The notes below the pieces were generated by a model, which saw only the letters and a list, made by a program, of their open reading frames with translations, had not been told where the DNA came from and ran no database searches. The position numbers were made by a program, and so were the translations under genes. From Streptomyces sp. WMMB 322 (GTDB taxonomy: Bacteria; Actinomycetota; Actinomycetes; Streptomycetales; Streptomycetaceae), in assembly GCF_900090145.1 (NCBI RefSeq), contig NZ_FMHI01000011.1, forward strand, positions 1-64,000: a stretch of DNA of 64,000 bases, read 5' to 3'. Numbering within the stretch: position 1 is the stretch's first letter; each line of letters starts with the position of its first letter. Shown piece by piece: positions 12,630 through 60,409 of the stretch.

Positions 12630-13976
12630 ATGAACGTCGGCAACAACAGAACCCGCAGGACCGCCCGTGCAGCACTGGCTCTCGTCCTTCCCCTGGCGGC
12701 ACTCGCCGCCTGCGGCGGAGGCGGCGGCACAGGCAGCACCTCCGCCGAGAAGGGCAGCGGCAGCGGCACCATCAAGGTCTGGGCCCACCAGGGTCAGGCC
12801 AGTGAGGCCGCCGCCCTGAAGAACGCGGTGAAGACCTTCAACTCCTCGCAGAAGAAGGTCAAGGTCAAGCTGACGCTGATCCCCGACACCGACTACACCA
12901 AGACCATCACCGCCACCGACCCCTCCAAGCTGCCGGACGTGATGGAGTTCGACGGTCCGACCATGGCGAACTTCGTCTACAACAGGAAGCTCGCCCCGAT
13001 CGACGACCACGTCTCCGTCAAGACCCTGGCCAACGCCACGGACTCCATCAAGGCCCAGGGCCGGATAGACCGCAAGCAGTACGGCCTGGGTATGTACGAC
13101 TCCGGGCTCGGCATCTACGGCAACAAGAAGAAGCTCGACGAGGCCGGCATCAAGTACCCCAAGGGTCTGTCCGACAGCTGGACCGCCGACGAGTTCACCG
13201 ACGCCGTGAAGAAGCTGGCGGCCCAGGACTCCGACGGCAAGAGCCTGGATCTGCAGGAGAACAACGGCCTCGCCACCGAGTGGGGCACCTACGGCTTCGC
13301 CCCGGCGATCTGGTCGGCAGGCGGCTCCCTGCTGAAGAACGGCAAGGCCAAGGGCGCCCTGGACACACCGGAAGCGGCGTCCGCGCTGAAGACCTTCCAG
13401 TCCTGGAAGACCCACGTCGACCCCAACACCGACGGCAAGGCGTTCGCCAAGGGCCGCGTGGCGCTGAGCTGGGTCGGCCACTGGATGTACCCCGACTACA
13501 GCAAGGCCCTCGGGAAGGACCTCGTCGTGCTGCCGCTGCCCGACTTCGGCAACGGCTCCAAGACCGGCCAGGGTTCCTGGGCCTGGGGCATCGGCGCCGA
13601 CACCAAGAACGGCAAGGCCGCCGGCACCTTCCTCGACTCCCTCCTGAACGACACCAACGTCACCGCGATGACGAAGGCCAACGGTGCCCCTCCCGGCACC
13701 GAGTCCGCACTCGCCGAGAGTGAGCTGTACAAGAAGGGCGGCCCGCTGCAGCTCTTCGCCGACCAGCTCGCCAAGCCCTGTGGTGACAGCGACATCGACA
13801 AGACCTGCGTCGCCGTGACCCGGCCCGTGACCGGCGGATACCCCACGGTCACCGCCAAGTTCAGCCAGGCGCTGAACGACGTCTACGGCGGCGCCGACCC
13901 GAAGACCGCACTGGCCAAGGCCGCCCGCGCCATCGACCAGGACTTCTCGGACAACGGCGGCTACAAGCTGCCCTAG
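12630..13976 (+). CDS. Sugar ABC transporter substrate-binding lipoprotein (fructan locus)
   Basis: This 448-residue extracellular solute-binding protein is family 1 type. A lipoprotein signal peptide ends in LAAC with Cys28 as the lipidation site, followed by a Gly/Ser linker. The mature part has the aromatic-rich pattern of oligosaccharide-binding proteins. It should capture fructo-oligosaccharides or sucrose for the two permeases that follow. GGAGG stands upstream of ATG 12630. The TAG stop codon at 13974-13976 is part of the CTAG end of an 86-bp inverted-repeat element that separates this gene from the permeases. Confidence 0.88.
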   Translation: MNVGNNRTRRTARAALALVLPLAALAACGGGGGTGSTSAEKGSGSGTIKVWAHQGQASEAAALKNAVKTFNSSQKKVKVKLTLIPDTDYTKTITATDPSKLPDVMEFDGPTMANFVYNRKLAPIDDHVSVKTLANATDSIKAQGRIDRKQYGLGMYDSGLGIYGNKKKLDEAGIKYPKGLSDSWTADEFTDAVKKLAAQDSDGKSLDLQENNGLATEWGTYGFAPAIWSAGGSLLKNGKAKGALDTPEAASALKTFQSWKTHVDPNTDGKAFAKGRVALSWVGHWMYPDYSKALGKDLVVLPLPDFGNGSKTGQGSWAWGIGADTKNGKAAGTFLDSLLNDTNVTAMTKANGAPPGTESALAESELYKKGGPLQLFADQLAKPCGDSDIDKTCVAVTRPVTGGYPTVTAKFSQALNDVYGGADPKTALAKAARAIDQDFSDNGGYKLP

Positions 13977-14058
13977 GGCCTGTTTCGAAGTCCCGCCTGC
14001 GGGGCGGCGCCACGCCCGCCCTAACGGGCGGACGACGCTACTTCGAAACACGCCCTAG
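13973..14058. mobile_element. 86-bp CTAG-bounded inverted-repeat element (MITE-like), complete copy
   Basis: The element begins CTAGGGCCTGTTTCGAAGT and ends with the reverse complement of CTAGGGCGTGTTTCGAAGT, giving 18 of 19 matching terminal bases. An inner GC hairpin (GCCCG/CGGGC) lies between them. Both ends carry CTAG, which may be the target duplication or part of the ends. A partial second copy with the same left 39 bases (two mismatches) occurs at 60221. It lies exactly at the stop codon of the binding-protein gene. It could act as an attenuator that lowers permease expression relative to the binding protein. It has no transposase. Confidence 0.7.
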
Positions 14059-14128
14059 CCGCATCCATCGGCCGGGAGGGACGGACGCCGACGGCGCCAC
14101 CCCTCCCGGCCGGGAACAGGACTCCACC

Positions 14129-15118
14129 GTGACCACCGTGAACCCCGCGCCCGCAGCGCCTGACGGGCGGAAGCCGAGCCCGCCGCCGAGATCCCCGAAG
14201 TCCGTACGGTCTCCTCGTCCCCACCGCGACTGGGTGCACGGGCTGCTGATGTCCGCACCCGCCCTCGGCGGACTGATCGCCTTCGTCGGCGTGCCGTTCG
14301 TCTACGCCGTCTTCCTGTCCTTCCACCACGTGCTGCTCGGCTCACCGCTCCCGCCCCGGTTCTCCGGCCTGGAGCAGTACCGGCGGATCTTCACCGACCC
14401 CGACCTGTCCGGCCCGTTCCTGCGGGCCCTGCTCAACAACCTGACCTTCGCCGTGGCCGTCGTCCCCCTTCAGACCGCCCTCGCCCTCGGCCTGGCCATC
14501 CTGCTGAACCGCAAGCTGAAGGCCATCGGCCTCTTCAGGTCGCTGTTCTTCATGCCGGTCGTCTTCCCCATGGCTCTGGTCGCGGTCATCTGGCGGCTCA
14601 TCCTGGCCCGCAGCGACCAGGGCATGCTCAACTCCGCACTGGATGCGGTGAGTTTCGGCAACTGGGGCGCCTTCGACTGGCTCGGCAGCGCTGCCACCGC
14701 GATGGCCTCGATCATCGTGCTGTCCATCTGGCAGGGCGTCGGCTTCCAGATGGTCATCCTGCTCGCCGGCCTCCAGCAGATCCCCGGCGAGCTCTACGAG
14801 GCCGCCCAACTCGACCGGGCCTCCCGGTGGCAGCAGTTCCGCCACGTCACCCTGCCCGGCATCCGCGGCACTCTCGTCTTCGTCGCCCTGCTCACCTCGG
14901 TGCTGGCATTCCGCGTCTTCGACCAGGTCTACGTACTCGTCAAGGGCGGCGGACTCCACGAGGACGCCACCCGCACCGTGATGTACCAGGCCGTCACCAC
15001 TGCCTTCGACCAGAACAACATCGGCCAGGCATCCGCGATCACCATCGTCTTCTTCCTGATCGTCGTCGTCCTGACTCTCGTCCAGCGCCGCGTCGTCCGC
15101 CCCGGCAACGAGGACTGA
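14129..15118 (+). CDS. Sugar ABC transporter permease (MalF-type), fructan locus
   Basis: This 329-residue inner-membrane protein has a Pro/Ser-rich cytoplasmic N-terminus and about six membrane segments. The binding-protein-dependent transport (EAA) loop is at about 218-240, seen as ELYEAAQLDRASRWQQFRHV. It pairs with the next gene to form the channel. The start is GTG 14129 with AGGA upstream. Its stop lies two bases before the start of the second permease. No ATPase gene is present nearby. Confidence 0.87.
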   Translation: MTTVNPAPAAPDGRKPSPPPRSPKSVRSPRPHRDWVHGLLMSAPALGGLIAFVGVPFVYAVFLSFHHVLLGSPLPPRFSGLEQYRRIFTDPDLSGPFLRALLNNLTFAVAVVPLQTALALGLAILLNRKLKAIGLFRSLFFMPVVFPMALVAVIWRLILARSDQGMLNSALDAVSFGNWGAFDWLGSAATAMASIIVLSIWQGVGFQMVILLAGLQQIPGELYEAAQLDRASRWQQFRHVTLPGIRGTLVFVALLTSVLAFRVFDQVYVLVKGGGLHEDATRTVMYQAVTTAFDQNNIGQASAITIVFFLIVVVLTLVQRRVVRPGNED

Positions 15119-59386: not shown

Positions 59387-60224
59387 TCCGGATACGCAGG
59401 CAGCCGCCTGGGTCGCCGAGGCCCAAGAGGACGACGACGAGATGCCGCTCTCGACGCGGCTGTCGATAGCCGACACCCTCACGCTGGGCAACGCCACCTG
59501 CGGCTTCATGGCGGTGTACTTCACCACCACCGGCGTGCTCATCCCGCACCTGACGGGCAGCGAGGACGGCGGCATGGCCCGGCACAGCGCCGCGACCGCC
59601 GTGATGCTGATGCTGCTGGCGTCCGTCTTCGACCTGTTCGACGGACTGGTGGCGCGGAAGCTGCGCAGCTCCGCGATGGGCGCGGAGCTGGACAACCTCT
59701 CCGACCTCATCAGCTTCGGCCTGGCCCCCGCCTACTTCGTCGCCACATGGGGCATGGTCGCCAACGACGCCAATCAGGAAGTGTCGGTGGTGGCCGCCGT
59801 CGTGGTGCTGCTGGCGGTGGTGCTGCGGCTCGCCAGGTTCTCGTGCGTGCCCATGCGCGACGGCATGTTCCAGGGCATGCCCGGCCCGTTCGGGGCGCTG
59901 ACCGTCGTGTCGATCGTGCTGCTGGAGCTGCCGTTCGTGCCGACGCTGCTGGCCATCATGGGCGTCGCCTGGCTGATGGTGAGCCGCGTCGAGTACCCGA
60001 AGCCGCGCGGCCGTCTGGCCGTGGCGATGCTCGGCTGGATCGTCGCGAGCATGGGGCTGCTGGCGGCCTGGGCGTTCGACGCCCCGGGCGGTGTGCTGCT
60101 GCTCCAGACCGGCTGCGCGCTGCAGGTCGTGCTCGGCGCCGTGATCCCGCTCTTCGCGACGGCGCGCAGGGTCCACACCTTCCGCGACAACCGCCGCGAG
60201 GCGAGGACCGCCGCACAGGGCTAG
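59373..60224 (+). CDS. pssA: CDP-diacylglycerol--serine O-phosphatidyltransferase
   Basis: This 283-residue membrane enzyme of the CDP-alcohol phosphotransferase family makes phosphatidylserine for Psd. The family motif is DGLVARKLRSSAMGAELDN, closing with SD, at about 91-112. About eight membrane segments are visible. TTG 59373 is preferred because AGGGG stands eight bases upstream; GTG 59379 is possible. The stop codon TAG (60222-60224) is part of the CTAG end of a partial copy of the inverted-repeat element found at 13973. Confidence 0.9.
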   Translation: MTVIDPDTQAAAWVAEAQEDDDEMPLSTRLSIADTLTLGNATCGFMAVYFTTTGVLIPHLTGSEDGGMARHSAATAVMLMLLASVFDLFDGLVARKLRSSAMGAELDNLSDLISFGLAPAYFVATWGMVANDANQEVSVVAAVVVLLAVVLRLARFSCVPMRDGMFQGMPGPFGALTVVSIVLLELPFVPTLLAIMGVAWLMVSRVEYPKPRGRLAVAMLGWIVASMGLLAAWAFDAPGGVLLLQTGCALQVVLGAVIPLFATARRVHTFRDNRREARTAAQG

Positions 60225-60262
60225 GGCCTGTTTCGAAGTCCCGTCTGCGGGGCGGCGTCAGG
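60221..60262. mobile_element. Partial copy of the CTAG inverted-repeat element
   Basis: The sequence matches the left 39 bases of the element at 13973 with two C/T differences. The right end is not recognisable afterwards, so it is a truncated copy. Like the first, it begins in the stop codon (TAG) of a gene. The remaining 60263-60409 holds a GC hairpin and no gene. Confidence 0.65.
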
Positions 60263-60409
60263 CACCGTCGTTCGGATCTCCGGGGCCCGGGTCGCAGACT
60301 GCGGCCCGGGCCCGGTTCCGTTGTGTGGCCGTGGTCGTTGCCGCAGGTCACAAGCCGTGATCCGCGAGGCAGCGGCATGTGTGGAGGCTCCTGCCGGCTC
60401 CCGTGGCGG

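Follow-up and report, generated by a model that had tools for sequence, protein, structure and literature searches.

A short MITE at CTAG sites, often within TAG stop codons of Streptomyces genes, and its probable mobilisation by an IS5-family transposase

Correia, ERIC and RUP elements are short and non-coding; they form imperfect palindromes, have terminal repeats and duplicate TA. Among insertion sequences (ISs), duplication of TA at CTAG is presumably the habit of the IS427-type group of the IS5 family, which we take to be the group closest to the IS described below. From Mycobacterium shottsii, an element of the IS5 type with the 4-base sequence CTAG as direct repeats has been described, and the accessible part of that paper contains no occurrence of stop codons (PMC9241763). 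According to the accessible part of another report, the MITEs of Haloquadratum have termini in common with a transposon and an otherwise unrelated interior, and one of them exists without any intact transposase left in the genome (PMC3119063).

Here we analysed 64,000 nucleotides of Streptomyces sp. WMMB 322 (this whole stretch is called the window). A reading of this DNA made from the letters alone (the sequence-only reading) had singled out an 86-bp inverted repeat bounded by CTAG, and this structure was confirmed: CTAG was present at both outer borders (13973-13976 and 14055-14058), the 19-base ends (CTAGGGCCTGTTTCGAAGT and CTAGGGCGTGTTTCGAAGT) were identical at 18 of 19 positions, and the RNA fold of 13970-14062 was very stable (-55.8 kcal/mol, z -6.15; none of 200 shuffles was equally good). 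The CTAG ends stood, while the mobile unit itself proved to be narrower, a palindrome of 80 bp (13976-14055) whose 16-base terminal repeats match at 15 of 16 positions. It is flanked by a target duplication, TA at 13974-13975 and 14056-14057, the outer C and G belonging to the host (Table 1). The binding-protein ORF (12630-13976) terminates at the TAG at 13974-13976, and the element part of a truncated copy (60224-60263) starts in the TAG of a pssA-like gene; both stop-codon starts, the second of which had been placed at 60221, were thus correctly recognised. Exact matches to the 16-base terminus lay at 13976, 14040 (minus strand) and 60224 of the window, and a tolerance of up to three mismatches gave four window matches, against a shuffle mean of 1.14 (3 of 100 shuffles reached four). 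CTAG was indeed rare, with 5 sites in the window against 72.9 expected from dinucleotide shuffles (about 15-fold depletion), and three of the five belong to the two element copies. An Rfam search of 13500-14500, up to E 1, gave no match.

Table 1. Positions of the element, its target duplication and the neighbouring features in the window.
Feature	Position	Strand	Remarks
Extracellular sugar-binding protein gene	12630..13976	+	ORF; name from the sequence and the sequence-only reading
Left TA duplicate	13974..13975	+	with the element's first G, forms the TAG stop of the sugar-binding protein gene
Element proper, internally deleted 80-bp MITE	13976..14055	+	termini GGGCCTGTTTCGAAGT and (inverted) GGGCGTGTTTCGAAGT
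Right TA duplicate	14056..14057	+	followed by host G (CTAG)
Separate GC-rich stem-loop, outside the element	14069..14112	+	from folding; between the binding-protein and permease genes
Permease gene, same operon, downstream	14129..15118	+	ORF; name by inspection
Truncated copy	60222..60263	+	TAG stop of pssA-like gene and left ~40 element bases; right end lost

In the source assembly (6.6 Mb, 32 contigs), the window terminus with one mismatch allowed occurred at 7 places, representing four copies at unrelated sites. Two of them, on other contigs, were full length (232 and 228 bp). The two halves of the window copy were 93-98% identical to these, and the window copy corresponds to the full MITE of about 230 bp minus about 150 bp from the middle. 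No transposase gene was present in the element, either in the 80 bp of the window or in the 228-232 bp of the full-length copies. All four copies had a TAG stop at one end, on the left in the two window copies and in the C12 copy and on the right in the C15 copy. A second terminus, CTGTCTGACAAATCCC, was found at 9 places of the source genome with up to one mismatch; all seven copies with the exact terminus lay in TAG stops, and the two longer copies with one mismatch lay outside detected stops. Another divergent copy (336 bp) lay in a stop; for two decayed copies, no ends could be credibly assigned. Around both terminus types, all copies of the source genome measured 80-286 bp, one of them being truncated. 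The three longer divergent relatives (285-336 bp; L300, L301 and L057 at G000:C21:39769, G000:C22:55571 and G000:C22:738673) had ends of the GGGGGTGTC/GGGAGTGTC type, with a detected stop codon in one of the three.

An IS with the same ends, for which the sequence-only reading had proposed to look, was found in other genomes: three copies of a 1018-bp IS5-family IS with the same terminus and a TA duplication were present in two of them (G122 and G208). The G122 copy encodes a 304-aa IS5-type DDE transposase (236 bits to NF033580, 'IS5 family transposase', cut-off 110; 96 bits to PF13340 and 46 bits to PF01609). One of its ends, GGGCGTGTTTCGAAGT, is the same sequence as the window element's right terminus; the other differed by one base, and TA stood on both sides. 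The two G208 copies (85% protein identity) had both ends identical to GGGCGTGTTTCGAAGT. The identity between element and IS covers 16 bases in a comparison that spanned about 18. TA flanked both sides of all three IS copies, and two of the three were located in a TAG stop. We dropped the idea that the G122 IS had turned a TAA stop into TAG, since the gene strand reads GGT-TAG before and after the insertion. Relatives of the IS with lower identity mostly had no reliable ends. Searches with the G122 transposase and NF033580 detected no intact partner transposase in the 32 contigs of the source assembly, the gaps between which could hide one; the only related piece was a 121-aa fragment. The element is therefore a MITE by its properties: it is short and without a transposase gene, it has terminal inverted repeats, a TA duplication and empty sites (below), its termini are common with those of an autonomous element, and several copies occupy unrelated sites.

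Uninterrupted sites were found in relatives. The binding-protein/permease region was matched in 53 of 392 genus genomes at E 1e-100 (source included), and 30 other orthologous binding-protein junctions ended in TAG (23) or TAA (7). None of these 30 carried CTAG or the element at the stop, nor was there any CTAG in the stretch of up to 150 bases beyond it. Two genomes (G013 and G104) had matches to the window flanks left and right of the insertion and were uninterrupted, reading CTGCCG-TAG-CCGGCATCC. For pssA, matched in 148 of 150 genomes, 24 other loci were read and none contained the window element; in G145 the site is uninterrupted (CAGGGCTAGCTG, site CAGGGC-TAG-CTGCCG). Because the orthologs are uninterrupted and end in TAG or TAA, the stop codon is most likely older than the insertion. 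The sequence-only reading had the element providing the stop of its host gene; this did not hold, as relatives already have TAG or TAA there and the element gives only the final G of an existing stop. In G025, the pssA TAG is succeeded by one end of another CTAG element, similar in type but distinct from the window element (one end was read), and the pssA stop was most likely hit independently in that species.

The same junctions bear on another proposal of that reading, that the element is an attenuator between the binding protein and the permeases. Its position between these genes and its very stable fold would suit a conserved transcription terminator or attenuator setting the binding protein:permease ratio. 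However, all 30 other orthologous junctions lack the element, the same element stands at unrelated places of the source genome, and in 13800-14300 no intrinsic terminator of the U-tract kind (stem-loop followed by a T run) was found. Moreover, a separate stem-loop is already present downstream (fold of 14059-14128: -44.2 kcal/mol, z -5.15). We consequently regard a conserved terminator or attenuator as highly improbable, and rejected it on the orthologous junctions and the missing U-tract terminator. As a candidate for a native attenuator within the operon, the downstream stem-loop is preferable to the element. Its conservation was judged by inspection, similar inverted repeats occurring in the same spacer of orthologs; folding of the ortholog spacers gave weak results (z below -2 in 5 of 31), and the consensus fold gave no covariation support (covariation term +0.26, with a two-sided change in 2 of 10 pairs). 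The element extends a spacer that already existed, and the window copy may give the operon mRNA an extra hairpin and alter mRNA ends.

Next, we compared the share of elements in stop codons with that of other CTAG sites. To locate gene ends we used codon-position GC bias, without annotation, a test that is blind in low-GC islands. TAG stops held 11 of 11 source-genome copies with the two exact termini, and 12 of 14 when altered ends were added (one of the three altered-end copies was in a stop). In 464 kb of the source genome, part of it in stretches where the gene test is blind, the background of 68 CTAG sites comprised 9 in stops, 55 in other non-coding or undetected DNA and 4 inside genes. 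The difference was highly significant (11/11 vs. 9/68, p = 2e-8), also when two terminus-like sites set aside from the background, both stops, were restored (11/70, p = 6e-8) and when mismatch copies were counted (11/13 vs. 11/70, p = 2.5e-6). Requiring detectable coding on both sides left a background of 7/25 and five of ten two-ended elements, all five in stops (p = 0.006). CTAG clusters were seen in two stretches of the source genome (L366, G000:C22:550001-570000; L379, G000:C21:80001-100000), which are perhaps foreign islands of other composition.

In the genus as a whole, few genomes had the exact 16-base terminus (2 of 150, source included). BLAST with the full element matched 30 of 61 genomes (source included), many via short inner parts only. 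The core motif, with two mismatches allowed, was present in 83 of 199 genomes (source included; at most 37 per genome), and a reversed-motif control gave none among the matches listed. A scan of named genomes returned at least 119 stretches with the core, with Streptomyces, Wenjunlia and Actinacidiphila among the matches listed. This single core was joined to many termini (L084-L202 and L302-L361), including GGGCGTGTTTCGAAAG, GGCCGTGTCTGACAAA, GGCCCTGTCGTCAAA, GGGGGTGTCTGGTGGA and GAGCCTGTGTCATAT, which suggests, at the level of sequence, that ends may have been exchanged repeatedly between element families.

We pooled 198 core copies (120 from named records, 20/20 of G208, 14/14 of G089, 6/9 of G064, 20/37 of G077 and 18 from other relatives). 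The pooled count demanded GG and TA ends, and 95 copies were dropped before it (85 without such ends, 9 at a contig edge and 1 duplicate); in the named set, ends had been called in 112 of 120, part of them spurious, and 68 were kept. Of the 103 resolved copies, 77 had CTAG as target, which makes up 3.2% of NTAN there, and 63 lay in a stop codon. Of the 77 elements at CTAG, 49 were in stops, compared to 30 of 126 unoccupied sites of the same DNA, three terminus-like sites being set aside from this background (p = 2e-8). The named set alone gave 22/39 vs. 25/99 (p = 7e-4). Omission of CTAG sites inside genes left stop:non-stop ratios of 49:26 in elements and 30:81 in unoccupied sites (p = 2e-7), and a context-controlled recount with detectable coding on both sides, which excluded 24 elements and 47 sites, gave 35/52 vs. 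22/67 (p = 2e-4). The excess over free CTAG sites (odds of about 4-6) is not accounted for by target choice alone.

A sister terminus, GGGCNTGTTTCGAANGT, was found in 40 of 343 genomes and is absent from the source genome. In a sample based on this terminus (one locus per genome in 30 genomes, including solo or decayed ends, 12 of them without a detectable partner end), 11 of 30 were in stops, not above background (p = 0.17); the subsets with a partner end and with intact CTA...TAG had 9/18 and 3/8 in stops. These figures warn that the share of copies in stops differs between families and samples. The proposed preference for stops is strong in the genus (63/103) and in the source genome (11/11), though not exclusive and weaker in the terminus-based sample. 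Copies with the same core, GAG termini and 3-base TNA duplications (TGA, TCA, TAA or TTA; L127, L139, L180, L345 and L361) also occurred. Only 4/18 of this class were in stops, compared to 63/103 of the TA class (p = 0.004), a somewhat uneven comparison in that TNA can form a stop on just one of the two strands; the low share means that the method is not indiscriminate in calling stops. An earlier count of the TNA class was 3/12, and one of its stop copies, L113, was later lost at a contig edge. We do not claim a TGA/TAA analogue for the TNA elements, as 4/18 is close to the background shares per strand, 16% for CTGAG and 8% for CTAAG.

The excess of stops could reflect transposition machinery, or an element core, that responds not only to CTAG but also to gene ends, for instance to a structure associated with terminators. 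Its persistence without in-gene CTAG sites and in the context-controlled recount would agree with this. On the other hand, inspection of 77 sites revealed no extended base preference around CTAG, the terminus-based sample was not significant, the TNA-type relatives had no clear excess, and selection against insertions elsewhere would yield the same pattern; we consider such recognition unlikely. Less likely again is that the element is kept for a function at 3' ends, such as mRNA stabilisation or insulation, with stop copies under positive selection. The strong hairpin and the occurrence of the core in 83 of 199 genus genomes are what such a function would lead one to expect, yet none of the other species read at the two window sites had this element there, its orientation relative to the gene was not significantly biased (39 vs. 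24 stop insertions, p = 0.08), and the genes downstream were equally tandem and convergent (32 each, 1 undetermined).

Our preferred reading, to which we give a probability of roughly 0.84, is that the element is a MITE moved by an IS5-family transposase and inserted at CTAG with duplication of TA, stop codons being the surviving sites. The transposase would act in trans on the terminal repeats of the non-coding element. Insertion at CTAG duplicates TA and, both termini starting with G, rebuilds CTAG at each junction. As TA followed by the first base G is TAG, a TAG stop is restored at the same codon in either orientation, and by the same logic a TAA stop used as target would become TAG. CTAG is rare in Streptomyces, with a minority of its sites in stops, and insertions at these spare the protein and so would survive. 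The sequence-only reading of a mobile element at CTAG, often in TAG stops and nearly harmless, is supported by the copies, termini, empty sites and enrichment in most samples, all observed directly, as were the TA duplication, the CTAG target and the autonomous IS elsewhere. Mobilisation by the IS5-type family is what we infer from the sequences. Likewise, we infer that the stop-codon excess is due mainly to selection rather than to active targeting of gene ends.

This reading explains in a simple way how a mobile element can occupy the end of a gene without protein change, the target TA and the first G forming TAG. For genomes poor in CTAG it predicts the places where such elements build up, and it points to a source of species-specific hairpins at gene 3' ends and within operons. 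A bolder version, which we regard as unlikely, is a large Streptomyces MITE family with one core, whose termini were exchanged many times to follow various IS5-type transposases, with a nearly harmless niche in TAG stops that are rebuilt on insertion and, in addition, real steering to gene ends. If true, stops would exceed free CTAG sites because of this steering and not through selection alone.

In the literature covered, of which subscription journals are mostly outside, we recognised no report of Streptomyces MITEs in stop codons and no description of a shared core with exchanged termini in Streptomyces. The Haloquadratum MITEs belong to other families and other hosts, and insertion in stops is not described in the accessible part of that report (PMC3119063); as with one of them, no intact partner transposase was found in the assembly of the source genome. 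Compared to Correia, ERIC and RUP as generally described, the Streptomyces element differs in its target, CTAG instead of plain TA, in its Streptomyces core and in its enrichment in TAG stops. The partner IS resembles IS5-family ISs in its IS5-type DDE transposase, G-starting terminal repeats, TA duplication and CTAG target; the window element, at 80 bp and without a transposase gene, differs from them. Judged by its sequence, the element would be of a kind already known, a MITE of an IS5-type IS, and its stop-codon niche in Streptomyces an apparently new feature.
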